In this document: positions 1-60,700 of the stretch, one piece after another | How positions within the stretch are numbered: position 1 is the first letter of the stretch | Layout of the letters: every line of letters starts with the position of its first letter | Assembly: GCA_030685235.1 (NCBI GenBank) | Contig: MU839081.1 | Coordinates: 186,001 to 250,000, forward strand | From: Copromyces sp. CBS 386.78 | Lineage: Eukaryota; Ascomycota; Sordariomycetes; Sordariales; Sordariaceae | Direction of reading: 5' to 3' | DNA length: 64,000 bases | The notes under the pieces: generated by a model | The model's database searches: none | What the model saw: the letters and a program-made list of their open reading frames with translations, nothing else | What the model was told of the DNA's origin: nothing | Made by a program: the position numbers and the translations under genes

Positions 1-1282
1 TCGAATAGTTCTATAAAACTATCGACGATTACCGTTTTAATATAGAAAATAATAAATAAGAGTACCAGGTAATTTGGGGAAGCCCCTACAATCCTACTTA
101 GTAACTATGGAAGGACGTAGAATATTATATTAACGACCTTAAAAATTTTTATAATAATAATTTAAATATATTAGTATTACTATAATAGATCGCGGACGAG
201 AAACGTCGCTATAGAGCTAAGAAGGCTCTAGAGAAGGCCGTTAGGATGGATTAGCCGCCGGAAAAGATAATATTAATAGTACGGCGATTATTACGTTACT
301 AAGAGGGGGCGGCCTAAAAAGGAAAATAAAAATAATATAAAAGGGTAAATAATAAGTATTATAAGGGAGGTTAAAAAGGGAAGTATTTTTACCCTAGGGG
401 TATTTTAGGCGAGGGAAATATTATAGGGTTATTTATAATTAATTAACTGTCCTATATCGCTACCTTTACTATAGTAATGGTTGTTGGGTTAATAGTATGC
501 TTTGATTGGCTGTAGAGACCTAGTATAGTAGATGCGGTTGAACGTATTTAATATCTAATTGGTTGCGGTTGTTAGCCTACCCCTATCGCTAAGGCTGCAT
601 AGACTATATTAGCTTATAGGATAATCTATAGGATGATCTATAGGATAATTAGGCTGTACGGGCTATATGTTCACTGTATATAAATGGCCATTAGGGTTCC
701 CCCAGATAGCTTCCTCTTCCTCGTGCAATTACGAATGTCTTTACAGATACCTAACGTTCGCCTTGCCCCGTGATAATTAATTTTAATTATTAAAGTAGAA
801 CTATTATTAATCTCCAACGCTATAAAGGAAATTATCGCTATTATACGTTTATATAAAGAAATTAAAATTCCCTTCGATTAGGAAATCCCCGTAATCAGCT
901 ATAATAATACCTAAACGATCTGTATTCTAACTATTAAAGTATTATAATTAATAACTAAATTAAAGTATATCGATATTTATCGTTACTAATTATAATAGGA
1001 GATTATAAAAGGAAGGATTATAATCGAATATTTAGAAATAAAGAAAATACTAATAAACGGCTTAATAAAGGTATTAGGACAATTAGATTACGAAAAGTTC
1101 CGGGATTTAATAGGGATAGCGAATACGCCGGCTCGAAAAGAAATAAGGATTAAAAAGGAAATTCCCGACGACGTTCTAAAGGATACTTATAATTTAACTA
1201 AGGAGATTAATGTACCAAAAAAGAGAAAACTATAAATAGCTTCACTTTTACCCTATTTTAAGAAAATCTATAAGTGAAGGGG
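1..1282. mobile_element. RIP-degraded AT-rich repeat DNA (retrotransposon relic)
   Basis: This stretch is strongly AT-rich, full of TpA dinucleotides and stop codons in every frame, and has no long ORF. That is the expected look of a repeat mutated by RIP, which turns C:G into T:A, mostly at CpA. A part around 480-760 is less degraded and has a short tandem array built on a 13-bp unit like tctataggataa (about 615-655), so more than one element may be nested here. The end of a retroelement pol gene is still recognisable at 963-1121. The left boundary lies outside the window. That this is repeat DNA is nearly certain; assigning every part to one element is not possible. Confidence 0.85.
963..1121 (+). 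pseudogene. RIP-mutated Ty1/copia-type RNase H C-terminus
   Basis: In frame 963-1121 the translation, through several stops, keeps the pattern of the end of a Ty1/copia RNase H: a KYIDI-like start, a GRI...EYL segment, a NGLIKVLG segment and a final EKFRDLIGI segment. These match the copia family pattern of K-H-I-D, then I-E-Y, then D-x-L-T-K-x-L, then F-x-x-L/F-R-x-L-L-G. The substitutions and TAA/TAG stops are of the C-to-T/G-to-A type expected from RIP. It lies directly upstream of a purine-rich tract and a probable LTR, as in copia elements. It is non-functional. The family assignment rests on this short segment alone. Confidence 0.6.
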
Positions 1283-1449
1283 TATATTAAATTAGAGGGT
1301 AGATATTTAGGTTTCTAACTATACTCAATCTAGGTTAGCCGCCCAGCCCCCTAGATTACTGGTTTCTAGGTCCCTCTAGGATACTCTAGCACCCCCCAGA
1401 CCTTCTGGGCGAGTGAGTTACATACACTCTTCAATCAATCAATTCTGCA
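1283..1449 (+). repeat. Probable 3' LTR of the degraded copia-like element
   Basis: A purine-rich tract (taagtgaagggg, about 1271-1282) like a polypurine primer precedes this segment. The segment starts tatatta, where an unmutated LTR would start with tg, and ends in ...attctgca. Its first about 40 bases are AT-rich, while the rest has near-normal composition, so the RIP footprint fades inside it. There is no second LTR copy in the window to confirm the ends, so the boundaries are inferred. Confidence 0.4.
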
Positions 1450-1548
1450 CAGTCACATCTGACAAATGGATGTGATTATTAAAGTCACGTGGTTCGTGAA
1501 ACTCTCGTTCACCTGTGGCGAAAAGCGATTGTCTACTACAATTCAATA

Positions 1549-1855
1549 CTGGTTTGTTTGTTAGTTTGGTTCTTCGGGCAAGGGTTGAGCAGGGGAGATT
1601 TGGAGCTCTCATTGGCCTTCAAAAAGAGAAACTAGCATCCGTTTAAAGCATCATAGGACAATAGCAAGGGTTAAAAACGCTACAGAAGCTTTTTATACCT
1701 CTTTCCGTCTTTATTCAAGGCTTCGAAGATAGAAATATATAAGAGAGTAATCTCCTCTCCGGCACCTATCCGCTCGAAGCCTAAATTCTTTACTACTTTT
1801 AGTAGTTCGAGAGTGGAAATAGGCGTTTTTTGTACCAGACTAACAAACAAACCAG
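1549..1855. mobile_element. MITE-like element with 22-bp terminal inverted repeats
   Basis: The 22 bases at 1549-1570 (ctggtttgtttgtta...) and the reverse complement of 1834-1855 agree at 21 of 22 positions. The one difference is T versus C. The 307-bp segment has no ORF. Internally it has a second, shorter inverted pair (aaggcttcga near 1715 with tcgaagcct near 1773), so it could fold extensively. A clear target-site duplication is not visible next to the termini. The structure is directly seen; calling it a MITE, a non-autonomous DNA transposon, is inference. Confidence 0.5.
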
Positions 1856-4800
1856 GGTTGGATTATACATATAAAAACAAGCCAAGACCTTCTCGAAGGC
1901 CATCGAAGGGCGGGTGGAAGTGAGCTAAGATGTCAAACTTCCGCGAAGCGACACGAGTTAATTGCGGGCGGTGCAAACGTATGCATATAAAAGCGGCTTG
2001 TGTGAGGGTTTCCAGTACAGCCGCAAAGCTTATTTGAAGGTCTGTCTCACTGATGTTTTGGGGAAATTGGGTTGTTCGAATGTTGGGGTAGGTACCTCCA
2101 AGCTAGATAAGGTAGGGTAGCTGAAAGGTCAAGTTGGGGCAAGGACGGAAGGGGTTATGGAGAGGGGGAGGAAGAAGGAAGGGTTGAAGAGAGGAAAGAA
2201 CTTTGGGGGGCTGTTGTAGGGAAGGGGTGAGGGGAGTTGCAAGAGATGCTGTGGAAGGAAAGAGGAAGGTGGGTGGGTAGGTAAGTCGGGTCGCTACGCT
2301 AGGTAGGTAGGCAAGGTACGAATATCAGAGAGATATGGACTTGGCGAATAATGTTGGTTGAGGGTGTTGGTGAGGGTGATGATTGTCGGGTATTTTTTTT
2401 CTCTTTTCTGTGGTTGGAGGTAATCTCTATTGGATTTTGGTTTATTCTCACTATGTATTTGGATTTTGGGTTTTCTCCTCTCTTGGAGGTTGGATTGATG
2501 TTCAACTCTCTCTCATCTTCTAGTCTCTTTGCACATTTTCCGTGCAATGTGTCTTTGTCTGGCTATGGATTGTTTTGTTCTTGATCGGGCTGTTATGAAA
2601 CCGTGTTGTTCTTCCTATGTGGACATCTCTCACTCTTTCTTTCTTTCTTGATCTCTTGTTCCTTTTTCTCTCCCGTCTTTCCCGTCTCTCCCCTCTTCAC
2701 TCTAACTTTGAGCGAATGAAGCTAGACAGAATTGATCGTAGAACACATGTGGTTCTCTAAAGTATGAACATCTCTTTGTTGGTACACTTGACACTGTATC
2801 AGCATGGGGAGCTGTTGCATAGCGTGAATATACTTATTTTCTGTTGTGCAAGTCATTGTCCCCCAGTCGACGGATCTTCACCAGAGGGAAAGGGGAGAGA
2901 AGGGCGATGCCCTCGTGATACTGGTAAATGTTCATCCGAAGGGTCCGGTTATGGGTGATTAACTGCCGTAGAGCACTAGCACTCCCGCCAAGGTGATAAT
3001 GCTAACGATGATGATCAGGAACACACAAGCTTCATGTGGTAGTCAAACCGGGTCCTTGTGAGCTGATCTGCCTGTCGATGTTCCTGAGGATCTCTGATTC
3101 CCGGGAGGCTGGCTGGCTGGCTGGCTTGTTGATGACCCAAGTCCCAAGCGTCGAACCAACCAACGAACCTGCCAACATACGATGAAGACGGCCATTTCCC
3201 CTGACGATCCTTGTCAAGGCATCATCCATGGATGAAGAAGTACTTTTGATGACATGCAGAGAGGCGCCGGCGTGTCTTGGACCGAAGCCCGGGGCCTCTT
3301 TGATATTGGATCCTCCCGTCGGAGCAACACTCGGGACTCACAAGAGAGATGGCAGCCAGACAAATGCTAATATCCCCTTGCCAGGAGGTTACTGTCGGTA
3401 TGTACTGTAGTGTATGCCGGCGAACGAACCGCACATTTGCCAAGACCGAACGGCAGAACGATGGGGGTTGCGTGGACGGCAAGGGGAACAGAGCCGGATA
3501 AGCGCGAGACACTGTCAAGATGCGCAACGACAGTGCACCAGAAGCACACAAAGGTCAGCTTCCACTTCTCTCTCTGGGCTTGTGGTGTCCAAAGTCCCGT
3601 CAATGGCCGTGGAACACACAAAGTGCCAGGTGGATGGAAAGCAAGAGGCTGGATGCCGATGGATGCATCGTGATGGATTACGAGTGGCCACATTGCTGAT
3701 GAAAGAAAGGCCGAGGCTAGCCCTTTGGCTGGGTCTTGGACCTCGTCAGCACAAATCAGCATGACCCTTTACTGCAAGCATTTCGGGCATTGGAGCTGAG
3801 ACCGACCGACCGACCGACCGGCACCGGCACCGGCATGGGGAGTGGCAGCGGAGGAAATTCAGTTTCAGAATTAGCAAGCATTATGCATAGCACCGATAGT
3901 TGCATAACCCTGAGGGCAAGCAAGCCCTAGGTACGTACTTTATTTATTACATGAAAGGAGACGGGAAAACCCGACAAAGACTGGAAGAACGACGGTACTA
4001 AGTCTACTTGGCGTATTCCACTTCCCCGCAACGTCCCCCACTCACCGTCACCACCGGGCTCTTTTTGAAATTTGAACCCATTCTTCAACAATTCAGCAAC
4101 CTATTCCAGCAGCAGCGTTCAACACATGATTCGGGTGCAGCCCCGCTTAATCAAGTCTCATCATGCACAGCACTAGAAACAAGTCGTGACTTTTGGTCTT
4201 TGCACTTGCACTTTTCCCCAGATCTCCCCGCTTGGTCGTGGAGACCAAGAATGGAGCAGAAAGGTTAAAAAAAAGGGGGGGAGATTGGGTTTGCACTAAC
4301 AGCGTCCCATGCCGGGCCAAGTAAGACATGCTGACCGCGCAGGACAATTGGCTTGCATTCATCGTTCGAAAAGGGGAAGGGGCGGAGGGAGGAGTGTGCG
4401 GAGAAAATCCACAACTTTTTGAACCAAGTTTACGGGGAAGGTGGGCTTTTGGTGGGCTTCCTAGGGGGTCACCAGGAACACCAACGTGCCCTTCCCGTCC
4501 CCTCATTCCACGTTCTCGTTCCCCCGTCTTCCGTCACCTCCATTGAATTCAGTCAGGCTCAGGTGGTTCTTCCCACTCGGGCTCCGTTCCCGTCCGTCCC
4601 TTCCTTCCATCTAATCTGTGTTGTTTTGACTCTTTGGTGCCTGGCCCAACAGAGCAAGTGCCAGGGAGCAATCAGGGTTGTTTCGCCTGGGGAACATCAA
4701 TCCAGACTCCCCAATGTTCCCCAAGACAGAATCAGATCTCTCCCTTCGCCCTTTTCTGTGGACATCCATGACATGCCAACCCTGACCAACTGATGCTTCA

Positions 4801-27326: not shown

Positions 27327-29147
27327 TTAGACGCCTGAGACCTCGTGCACATTGGCTATATGTTGCTGCAAATATTCAGCGCTGGAAGCGACATACAAGC
27401 ATCCTTTGAAGGAACAGGTATATCCGTCCATCATTTGCGTCCAGTTCGGCTCATCATGATGCTTCCCGGTAACGTGCGACGCCATTTGTGATTTACCGAA
27501 GGCCTCCCCACAGCCTGCAAAAGGACATAGCAAAACCGGGGCAGGACATGCCCAGGCTATATGCTCGGCTCGTTTCTCACGTGTGGAAAACGCGGTGGAA
27601 CAGGCTGGGCATTTGAACACGGTAAAGACCACCTTGTTCATGGGCTGTGACTTGGAAACCGTTTTGTTCTTCTTGTGGCTCTTCATGTGCCTCTTGAGCT
27701 CCTCCAACGTGTTCTGCGGCTTTTTGCAATCATTCAATGGGCACGGAAAGTCCTCCCCTAATACCGGTAGAGCCTCACAATCCCAGGGTTGCATGAATTC
27801 GTGCGTCCGCACCATGTGTATCTCGACTCGAGTTTTGCATGCGGCTGCGGGTTGTAGATCACCTCCTTGTACAAGTACTGTACAACCCTCTTCCGGGCAC
27901 GCCCATGCCCACGAAGACTTCTAGGCTCGAGAAACGGGGAAGTGGCTACTTTTGTGGGAAAATAGGGCCCTCTTGCCGGGAAAAGCGTATTCGCACCAGC
28001 AGCAACCAAGAAGTTGATCGGGTTTTTCAAGACAGCCCCCCTAATGGTCTATCCTATGTGTTGATAGGTCATAGCTTGTTATAAACTCCGCCCCGCAAGT
28101 TACACATTTCCAGACTCCAGCAGTGTCAGCGACAAAGCCGACATTTCTGTCTTCGATTGGGTGTCCTTGGGCATCATGGTCCGCTGCTTCGGCTGTTTCT
28201 ACAGACCCGGAAGCCTTGTCGTCATGTTGACCTTCCACGTTGAATGACTCCACAAATGGCTCGCCCGTAAATGGGCTACCTTCAGGAGCTACCACATTGC
28301 TTTGAAGGTTGAGTGGTTCTTTCTGACCCCGCTCTTTTAGCACCTGGCCATGACCGTCACTTCCTGCCATGTGCCTTTTCTGGGAGCCGTTTTGCCCTGG
28401 CTCCTGAGTATGGAGATGCTTGTTACCTTGGGAGGCATCAAACTTTCGCTTTCCCAGTATTGGGCCCGTCTCTCCCGCCGTCTGCGCCCAAGGCTGCTGG
28501 TAGCTGGCGCTGGAATTTTGTTCGAGGCCAAGTTGCTGTTGTTCTGTGAATGCTGCAGAAGGTAGGATTGGGTTGGAATGCAGCGGCTGTGGCATAGGGA
28601 CATAATTGCCAGGCGGTAACTGTTGATGAAGAAGGTGTGCGTCCTGATTGTTCCCTGCGCTTTGTCCAGCACCCATTGCTCCTCCAGATACTGGGTCGTC
28701 CAAGTCCCCATACCAATCGGGTTGAACCACCGGCTGGCCAGTTGCCTGGGAAGTGCCATTCATAGGCAAAAAGCTGTTGCTGGGAGAAAAGTCAGCCAGG
28801 TTGGCCATTCCCGTGCCATAGAATGACATATCGAAATTGTCCTGGTTCGGAAAAATCGCAGAGGTATTGGCTGCCTGTTGCATGTGGCCACCTGGCTGAC
28901 TCGGCCAACCGTTAAAACTCGAACCGGTCGGGTCATCAAAGGTAGTTGTTGAGGGCTGTTCAAAGCCTTGGAAGTTTGGATCCTGGAAGTCGAAGTTGCC
29001 GAGTAATGGCTCAAAGCCTTGGAAGTTTGGATCCTGGAAGTCGAAGTTGCCGAGTAATGGCGGTATATTCTGCTCATCTCCGTTCCCTTGCTGCTGCTGG
29101 CCGGGCGAAGACCCTGCTAGGCCATCATGGTTCGGATGCTGAGACAT
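27327..29147 (-). CDS. C2H2 multi-zinc-finger protein frame interrupted by two in-frame TAG codons
   Basis: From ATG 29147 to the stop at 27327 one frame runs 606 codons, broken only by TAG at codon 369 (28043-28041) and TAG at codon 409 (27923-27921). Residues 1-345 are Gln/Pro/Asn-rich and disordered, with a duplicated 17-residue unit. Finger 1 (codons 348-368, CVTC...HRIDH) ends exactly at the first TAG. Finger 2 (codons 382-402, CCWC...HKSSH) lies between the TAGs. Five further C2H2-like or C2HC-like units follow: CPEEGC...HMVRTH, CPLNDC...HMKSH, CPAC..., CPFAGC...HVTGKH and CSFKGC...HIANVH. Fingers 1 and 2 fit C-x2-C-x3-F-x5-L-x2-H-x3-H exactly. Read as it stands, the product is 368 aa. 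A GTAACT donor (28103) with a CTAG acceptor (27921) could remove 183 nt in frame, losing fingers 1 and 2 and both stops, but the donor is poor and no branch site is visible. The protein is probably a DNA-binding nuclear factor. Confidence 0.7.
28960..29061. repeat. 51-bp perfect tandem duplication inside the zinc-finger gene
   Basis: Two copies of a 51-bp unit (28960-29010 and 29011-29061) are identical and keep the frame, duplicating a 17-residue segment (PLLGNFDFQDPNFQGFE) near the N-terminus. Perfect identity suggests a recent duplication. It is below the length that normally triggers RIP. Confidence 0.9.
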
Positions 29148-57760: not shown

Positions 57761-60700
57761 TTATTCCTCCTTCTTCTTGCTAAACAAGTTGGCCAGCGAT
57801 TTCTTCTTTTTGAGCTGCTTTTGTCTTTGTGATCCCCCGGTGTTGTCATTGTCTTCGGTAGGAGGGATTGGAGGCACCGGAATCGAGGGAACTGGAGCCC
57901 CTGGCATTGAGGAGGAAAGCGGAGGAACCGGAGGAATGTCTGGCAGGCGAGGGGGGCCGCCATCTCGGGTTGTGACTGGACTGAGACTGTTCGTTGTTGA
58001 GAAGGAAGAGGAGGCTTCCCGGCGAAGGTTGCCACGAGATTTGGTTCTCAGTCTGCTAAACGCGTTCCGCATCCTGTCCATCGTTGACGGCTCCTCCTCG
58101 GTATCTGAGCTCCAGTACGACCTGGGCTCTTCTGCTGCTTCACTGCTTGCTCTCTCGCCTTCTGTGCCGTCTCTCACCGTCACCATCGCAGGGCCCCTCT
58201 CGCGCATCTCAACAATAATGTTAGGTTGCGGAGGACGAGGTTGAGCCTGAGGTTGAGGCTGGCTAGACCTACTCGACCCCGAACCACGCGAACCCCGCGA
58301 ACCACGCGAATTACGGCCACGGCCACGACCACCAGAACCGAAAGCAGAAGCAAAGGAAGGACTGGAAAAGCCCGGCGTCATCGGGGTTGGTGAACCCATC
58401 ATTCCTGGCGAGGTTGGGGAGCCAATGAAAGTTGCTGCTGAGGAACCGCTGAGTTGGTGGGAGCCGCTGCCCCTGCCAGAGCTCGTTGGCGGCGACGTCA
58501 TGTCGTTGCCAGTGGTAGTAGATGGGGGGAAAGTACCCAGAGTCTGCGTCCTCATACGAAAGCGCGGGGGCATGGCCGCTCGCTGATCCTCGTACCTGTC
58601 TTGAGTGCGGCCAAGGTATGTCCGAACATCTGCCTCAAACTGATCTTCATCTCCAGTCGGGGCACCCATCGGCCTGGGCGCCGACACTGCTCGCGTGCCG
58701 AAACGAGAGTTGCCGCCGAGAGCACCACCGAAAGTTGTCGACATGGGCAGTCGAGGAAGCGCCTGAGTGACCGAACGGGCAAAACCACTAACCGGCGGAG
58801 AAGAACTAACTGGCACAGGCGGCGGGACATTGGCGTGCGTCACCGACCGCCGAAGAAGACCACGGCCGAGCCCAACAGAACCAGAGTCAACGCCAGGGGA
58901 CACCGCATCAGAAGAGTTTGCCGTAGCAGGAGGAATTGCACCACCAAGAGACACTCCAACATCACCAGCTCCTGACGCATGAGGAGGGCGGGTTGTGGGC
59001 AAGACACCAACGGTAACGGAAGAAACGAGGCCACCATCACCAAACGCAGACGCAGAAGAAGCTGTACCAGGCCTCTGTTGTTGCGTGCTTGAACCACCAT
59101 CAGGACGCAAACCTCTACCCAAACTCGGAGGCGGGAAGACATAAAGGGCAGGGCGGCGGCGTTCGGGCTGCGGTTGCGGTTGCGGCTGGGGGCGTGGGCT
59201 GGCGCTGGTGATGGCTGAAGAGCCTCGTCTCGTTGCTGGAGTACGACGAAGGGGTGGCGGCGCAAAATCCGCAATCATTGGCGGCAGTGTGGTGGTCGAC
59301 CCGTGTACCGGGCCTCCCACGAGAGAATCCATGGCAGGACCCTCCTCCCGCGAGGGCACACCTTCGCCAAAGTCTTGGATGATGGCGCTATTGTCGATGG
59401 CGAAACCAGCTTCCTCGGCTAACTAGGCCAAGGAGATACTGCTTCTGTCCATCATTGCTACGTCGTGCTCCAGATCGTTGGTGTCGGCAGAAAAAAGAGC
59501 CCCTTCCTGTTCCTCACCTGTGCTGGCCGGACGAGCGGTCCTTTCCGAATCGGCTGAAGAGGATGGCGTCGGGGAAGAAGAAGCCAGCCGGAGCCGGCCC
59601 TCTTCACCCAACATGTGAGGAACCATCCCCCAGCGTCGTCGGTCGCCTTGAACGAAGCTGGTTTCGCCGGCTACCACGAGAGTCGTGTCATCGCTACCCC
59701 GGGTGCGGGCAGGTGACTCCTCTGCGTGGCGCTGGGCGGCACCATCGTCCGAGGCGGTAAAGGACCTGCGGTCGGCTGTTCCAACCAGTGAAGAAGAGGA
59801 CGCCGTCGAGGCGACAAGCACAAGAGAAGCATGAGCAGCAAGTGGCGGTGCCGGCGAGCTGTCCCTGATGGTGGACAAGCTCGGGGCATAAAGCCGGGGA
59901 CGGCCACCACCAACATGCTGCAGCGACTCCCTGCTGTCAGAGTCCTCGTAATCACTCTCCTCCACGTCTCCCTCGTACTCCGCGTCGTCCACACCAACCA
60001 CTCCGACTTGTACCTGGGTACCACCCAATGGCTCAACGCTTTGCCCCGGGATGGGCGGAAGCGGCCTGTTGGGCGGTGGGAAGCCAGGACGGTCGGCAAA
60101 TCCACCACCAGTGTTACCACCAGCTGGGACTACCGATGGGGAGCGGTTGATGCGGAGCGGAGGGACAGGCGGAATGTCCTCGAAACCGGACCCACTCAAG
60201 CCAGATACCGCCGGCAAGCTGAGCGGGGTGAGGACCGGAATCGTCCGAGGGGGTTGGGAACAGCCTTCCTGCTGGGCTCGCTCGGCCTGCTGCTTGATCC
60301 TGCGCTTTTCACTCAGGCTCATGGTCGTCTCGTGCCTGTTTTTTGAGGAATTGTTAGTTGTCTTGTTCTCATGACTCGAAAAGAGGGAAAATGTTTGGCT
60401 TGGTGCTTTCGCTTGAAGACGGTGGCAAACGAAAAACGAAACAAGTTATCATCCCAAGTCCCAATGCCCCGTGTAATACCACGGGCAGGAAACAACTAGA
60501 CAAAAAAACATTCGAACGACTCCCACGCCTTTCCCAAGAGATATAGTCCTGCTCGCCTTGGAGACGCGAACTCATACTCTTCGTCAAGGGCGGAATATAC
60601 CAAGGGCCATTCTCCGTGCGGGTCCATGTCTACTACCTAGCCTTGCTAGATCACGCCAGTGGTCATGAAAGAAGAGAGAAGCACACAAGACGAATTCACT

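Follow-up and report, generated by a model that had tools for sequence, protein, structure and literature searches.

The window, a stretch of 64,000 nucleotides from contig C3 (186001-250000) of the 49.8-Mb, 273-contig genome of Copromyces sp. CBS 386.78, carries a rapidly evolving C2H2 zinc-finger gene on its minus strand. As the earlier note had described, the sequence reads as one frame of 606 codons with a terminal TAA, split by just two internal stops, both TAG (Table 1). These lie 120 nt apart, TAG1 after finger 1 and TAG2 after finger 2. Both fingers keep the frame and fit C-x2-C-x3-F-x5-L-x2-H-x3-H exactly, as stated there, finger 1 reading C-VT-C-GAE-F-ITSYD-L-ST-H-RID-H and finger 2 C-CW-C-EYA-F-PGKRA-L-FS-H-KSS-H. 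The seven zinc-finger-like units of the frame can be counted by eye. The Pfam family zf-C2H2 matches the read-through translation with 42.5 bits (curated cut-off 25.2) and the 196 residues after TAG2 with 39.3 bits, both above the cut-off; taken alone, the piece before TAG1 is sub-threshold at 15.4 bits, as is the inter-TAG piece (38/39 residues) with zf-C2H2_4 at 15.6 bits (cut-off 27). An AlphaFold model of the read-through protein (mean pLDDT 35.2, pTM 0.18) shows beta-beta-alpha patterns at the fingers only and was too poor to be carried into a fold search.

Table 1 Coordinates of the interrupted zinc-finger gene, and of two further TAG-split zinc-finger frames in the genome
Feature	Position	Strand	Basis or remark
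Whole frame, ATG 29147 to TAA 27329-27327, with two internal TAG codons	27327..29147	-	Sequence; homologues on both sides of the TAGs
Upstream part, 368 aa, mostly low-complexity, with a single C2H2 finger at its very end; predicted unedited product	28044..29147	-	
Tandem duplication of 51 bp, perfect and frame-preserving, within the upstream part	28960..29061	-	Missing from P0002 and P0003
Finger 1; TAG1 follows directly on its last ligand, a His	28044..28106	-	Sequence
TAG1, codon 369, preferred context letters 6/6	28041..28043	-	Stop position common to P0002
Predicted RNA hairpin around TAG1	28028..28056	-	Prediction only
Finger 2, between TAG1 and TAG2	27942..28004	-	Counterpart inside N. 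tetraspora P0003
TAG2, codon 409, preferred letters 5/6, without robust hairpin	27921..27923	-	
Finger 3; Cys pair before ATG 27815, last His after it	27801..27899	-	By eye
Downstream open part from ATG 27815, 162 codons; own gene model in P. amorphoporcata	27330..27815	-	
Finger 4	27675..27743	-	By eye
Finger 5, Cys-Cys-His-Cys type	27546..27611	-	By eye
Finger 6	27459..27527	-	By eye
Finger 7	27345..27416	-	By eye
TAG of zinc-finger frame near OLD	C190:38529-38531		Locus stretch G000:C190:27001-47000
TAG of zinc-finger frame near OLD	C62:32945-32947		Locus stretch G000:C62:20001-40000

The closest named proteins retrieved by our protein searches come from Pseudoneurospora amorphoporcata, a member of the Sordariales, and from Neurospora tetraspora. 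In these searches four homologues turned up outside the present genome (P0002, P0003, P0005 and P0006), and a profile search for more relatives returned six matches, all known already. The gene has no close paralogue in its own genome, where, apart from itself, the downstream piece matches four further sequences, weakly and through fingers (best E 0.0016); P0006, searched against the genome, matches the window gene alone.

Two P. amorphoporcata proteins cover the gene from either side of the TAGs. P0002 (351 aa) ends with the residue that corresponds to the codon just before TAG1 and is identical to the upstream part at 317 of 351 aligned residues. P0005 (169 aa) starts at a Met matching ATG 27815 and continues to the gene end; 141 of its 162 residues aligned with the downstream part are identical, and none of the 17 zinc ligands is changed. 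The source contigs of both proteins have a length of 141,725, which suggests that they stem from one contig. Two indels separate the species, one of 17 aa upstream, equal to the 51-bp duplication of the window gene, and one of 7 aa downstream, and both are in frame. By its look the duplication is recent. From the end of P0002 and the downstream frame preserved in P0005 it follows that a stop at the TAG1 position is common to two species and that the downstream part is open in both. The stop of P. amorphoporcata is known there as a protein end, and TAG would be the simplest guess for its triplet.

The other two homologues run across the stops. P0003 (N. tetraspora, 577 aa) combines counterparts of fingers 1-5 and an extra finger-like unit in a single protein, and P0006 (235 aa) passes through both TAG columns with Met at TAG1 and Asp at TAG2. 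The comparison of the two codons among related species, proposed in the earlier note, thus divides the relatives: the stop position of TAG1 recurs in P0002, while P0003 and P0006 have sense codons. In the latter two the TAG1 column holds Met or Cys, never Trp, and the CAG or TGG ancestor that had been implied is not seen.

The 183-nt segment 28103-27921, earlier named as a poor in-frame intron, has the GT...AG ends and the in-frame length ascribed to it, yet it lacks a branch-site match. Within 28400-27500 there is no GTRNGT donor, and no usable acceptor lies within 45 nt of the one CTRAY match (28129). Of 115 GT-YAG combinations that are 45-400 nt long and overlap at least one TAG, none has a branch site. 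Splicing out 28103-27921 would also cost the protein finger 2 and almost the whole of finger 1, although counterparts of both fingers are coding in N. tetraspora. We therefore regard it as very improbable that this or any other intron takes out the TAGs. An origin of the TAGs by RIP is likewise disfavoured, as the indices of the gene (TpA/ApT 0.61, (CpA+TpG)/(ApC+GpT) 1.45) are normal when set against the values of 1.29 and 0.64 at window positions 1-2000, an AT-rich stretch (GC 0.358) with RIP-like indices. Taken alone, the 123 nt of 27921-28043 give 1.67 and 1.20 and are too short to judge.

The earlier note held that the frame would not have been kept by chance. The TAG-split frame is indeed more than a chance occurrence, since the homologues extend over both of its sides without a change of frame; the claim that chance would not have preserved it is moderately supported. 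Neutral evolution was simulated in 600 runs at each of three transition biases, run to the identity seen with P. amorphoporcata, and the joint probability was taken of no stop, no ligand loss and a substitution score at least as high as observed. From ATG 27815 downstream this probability is 0.010, 0.013 and 0.027 across the three biases; the same design gives 0.13 to 0.18 for the upstream part. The substitutions themselves are no more conservative than neutral, with 84 to 90% of runs reaching or exceeding the observed score downstream and 95 to 98% scoring at least as high upstream. Since they look neutral, the kept ligands and frame are the sole hint of constraint. At the level of protein comparison our data suggest constraint downstream of TAG1, on moderate evidence of selection, and neutral drift may still account for the open frame.

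Comparison with the more distant proteins resolves the region into segments. Against P0006, 15 of 39 inter-TAG codons are identical versus 69 of 109 upstream (P 0.009), and the segment from TAG2 to the ATG, with 20 of 33, does not differ from the upstream part (P 0.84) and is not relaxed. In the comparison with P0003, 17 of 37 inter-TAG codons are identical, much as in the downstream part (55 of 116; P 1.0). The 39 codons between the TAGs thus appear somewhat relaxed, which counts against correction of the UAGs by RNA editing, the mechanism put forward in the earlier note. Together with the two in-frame stops and the lack of conservatism in the changes from P. amorphoporcata, this relaxation would be expected of a decaying gene that yields a truncated upstream protein or nothing, its downstream fingers being a pseudogene tail not yet further broken. 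However, the stop at the TAG1 position predates the split of the two species, yet the 162 downstream codons have acquired no stop or frameshift in either, and the unchanged ligands, the low joint probability downstream and the conservation between TAG2 and the ATG all speak against decay. We consider it unlikely, though less so than the other alternatives.

Translational readthrough of the UAGs, without editing, would also account for a frame and fingers that go on beyond both stops, but it would require two events. The codons directly after the stops are GGG at TAG1 and AAG at TAG2, both of which lie, to our knowledge, outside the known leaky fungal contexts; this counts against readthrough, and we give it hardly any weight. 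Gene fission would instead leave a separate 368-aa protein and a second protein starting at ATG 27815. P. amorphoporcata is annotated in this way, its second model beginning at the matching Met. A start at this ATG, which lies within finger 3, would however forfeit the Cys pair of the finger, though the sequence keeps it, and the segment between TAG2 and the ATG would not be expected to escape relaxation relative to P0006 as it does. A purine is preferred at position -3 of a start codon, and this base is C at ATG 27815 versus G at ATG 29147. For CHE1, gene models split in this manner are put down to UAG correction and regarded as an artefact (PMC11169179). Fission therefore seems doubtful to us.

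In Fusarium graminearum, the letters reported to favour A-to-I editing are U at -1 above all, C or U at -2, A or G at +1, +3 and +4, and G at +2, and over 62% of sites fall in predicted hairpin loops, with similar structural findings stated for N. crassa (PMC9600606). Scored against these rules from -2 to +4, TAG1 has six of the six preferred letters and TAG2 five. The A of TAG1 is predicted to be the fourth base of an 8-nt loop (AUUAGGGG) closed by a 10-bp stem (-8.9 kcal/mol), and it stays in a hairpin loop at all seven flank lengths folded. The predicted folding of TAG2 varies with flank length and gives no robust hairpin; by predicted structure, TAG2 would be the weaker editing candidate. 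Counting TAG triplets in all frames of both strands, with about 2.1 kb trimmed from either end of the window, gives 904. Of these, 21 have the 6/6 context, 297 lie in hairpin loops and 83 in a loop of at most 8 nt that is at least as stable as that of TAG1. The full context coincides with a hairpin in 10 of the 904 and with a stable small loop in four, TAG1 among them. By itself the context score separates sites poorly: every TAG necessarily brings U at -1 and G at +1, and the two zao candidates described below have only four and three of the six letters.

P. amorphoporcata has Thr in place of the Ile of HRIDH in finger 1. If this reflects a change from ATA to ACA, it would turn a G-U into a G-C pair in the stem around TAG1. 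A second copy of the octamer AUUAGGGG occurs in the gene at 27759 on the minus strand, with its A in a stable 8-nt loop, a 6/6 context and a Leu codon, TTA. This copy could possibly serve as a synonymous internal marker for editing.

Elsewhere in the window, a second minus-strand frame (57761-60445) is split by a TAG (59425-59423) into 340 and 553 open codons that are alike in composition on both sides, MSLSEKRRIKQQ... to ...SLANLFSKKKEE. In the predicted fold its A comes third in a loop of 7 nt closed by a stem of 8 bp (-12.7 kcal/mol), a position that resembles A34 in an anticodon loop; the context is 4/6. The frame has no Pfam match, and neither GTRNGT nor CTRAY occurs within 300 nt, with a GTGAGG present at 59517. 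Frame-splitting stops with at least 150 open codons upstream and at least 100 downstream number seven in the window, five TGA and two TAG; the zinc-finger gene falls outside this count because its inter-TAG stretch is below the cut-off, and the count therefore gives no support.

Seven deaminase matches are found in the genome. One of them, on C76, is Tad2-like and, from its HAE and PCVMC motifs, presumably represents Tad2. PF14441 (OTT_1508_deam) has two matches, on C190 and C62, and none on C3. At each of these two OLD-family loci a TAG-split frame running into C2H2-like fingers is arranged head-to-head at 2 to 3 kb. The two frames are homologous to one another (E 1.7e-8). Each has the A of its TAG in a predicted loop. 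Matched by description, they are probably the zao-1/zao-2 OLD-ZAO pairs (PMC12754623). DUF726, described as the domain of Ame1 (PMC11087585), gives four matches at three loci as Ame1 candidates; the match on C16 was considered as an editing control and set aside, its TAG seeming, by eye, to fall within an intron or at the border of an exon.

For positive controls of editing we turned to kinases: among 141 matches, eight have exactly one TAG and no other stop, and seven of these eight (all but that on C12) were inspected. One, at C22:424199-424201, is the stk-21/PUK1 orthologue, identified by its restored DWWS motif, with TAG-TGG in frame within the kinase domain; in the other six, inspection by eye places the TAG in what looks like an intron or at an exon boundary. 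N. crassa stk-21 (NCU03242) is reported with the same TAG-TGG and with editing seen in perithecia (PMC4817773). The stk-21 site of the present genome has five of the six preferred letters and the two zao candidates have four and three, with the A unpaired in all three.

We regard A-to-I editing of UAG as the most likely mechanism, with a probability of roughly 0.6 as judged from sequence. It is the best-supported reading through the stop shared at TAG1, the downstream frame open in both species, the context of TAG1 and the UAG kept in stk-21/PUK1, TAG2 being the weaker part of the case. The trait expected of premature-stop correction, an in-frame UAG followed by coding in the same frame, is present in the window gene. 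The mRNA of this single C2H2 gene would carry premature UAGs, which editing would convert to UIG, read as UGG (Trp). Unedited mRNA would give 368 residues with one finger, editing of TAG1 alone would give two fingers, and editing of both TAGs would yield all seven in a protein of 606 residues; this full-length form would thus be made under certain conditions only. Tad2-Tad3-Ame1, the perithecial editor (review PMC11156358), would be the default in perithecia, and an OLD deaminase the alternative in hyphae or upon virus infection; OLD-1 is reported with broader targets (PMC12754623). The earlier proposal that the full protein appears only in fruiting bodies is not established, given that C2H2 genes with UAG editing in hyphae or in connection with viruses have been published (CHE1, OLD-ZAO) and that two OLD loci are found here. 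We infer that editing occurs, that it extends to TAG2, that one of these deaminases acts, and that the protein, which probably binds DNA, has a role in regulating transcription.

If the gene is edited, it would be one more lineage-restricted C2H2 gene whose output is gated by UAG correction, and a third TAG-split zinc-finger gene in this genome beside the two OLD-ZAO-like pairs, a pattern that would point to genes of this kind as preferred clients of stop-codon gating. With two separate UAGs among the fingers, the editing level could then set the finger number. A more far-reaching and tentative idea, to which we attach a low probability, is that the OLD-type or perithecial editing circuit has in this gene a third zinc-finger client, unlinked to OLD. 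A double gate of two separate UAGs, both of which would have to be edited in one mRNA, would then translate the editing level into one, two or seven fingers and thereby into DNA-binding reach. The locus also illustrates how automatic annotation makes two genes of one such gene. No paper on it was found among the matches listed in the open-licence literature, searched without a gene name.

UAG-gated C2H2 genes are already known from CHE1 (PMC11169179) and zao (PMC12754623); what is unusual in the window gene is that it has two UAGs, far apart, among the fingers. According to its description, CHE1 of F. graminearum has one UAG before all three fingers, is edited in hyphae, and has gene models in relatives that automatic annotation leaves split or truncated (PMC11169179). 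Like CHE1, the window gene encodes C2H2 fingers, is predicted to hold one in-frame UAG, that of TAG1, in a hairpin loop, and has a homologue, that of P. amorphoporcata, annotated as split. It differs in that its two UAGs follow finger 1 and finger 2, and in that editing is observed for CHE1 and predicted here.

The OLD-ZAO module of N. crassa, for which virus-linked UAG editing is published, contains the zinc-finger genes zao-1 and zao-2, each described with an in-frame UAG (PMC12754623). The window gene, from a close relative of N. crassa, likewise combines zinc fingers with in-frame UAGs. Unlike the members of the module, however, it has no adjoining OLD gene. This speaks against ZAO membership, as does the lack of homology, outside the fingers, to the zao candidates on C190 and C62 (best E 0.008). 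The window gene shares 0 and 0 ten-letter promoter words with the two OLD-ZAO intergenic stretches, the means for 300 random window segments being 1.5 and 2.5.

With PUK1 of F. graminearum, a kinase in which two adjacent UAGs are described as restoring Trp of DWWS (PMC4817773), the window gene has two in-frame UAGs in common, and the 5/6 context of TAG2 equals that of the stk-21 site in its own genome. In contrast to the kinase, its UAGs lie 120 nt apart, at columns where the relatives have no Trp.
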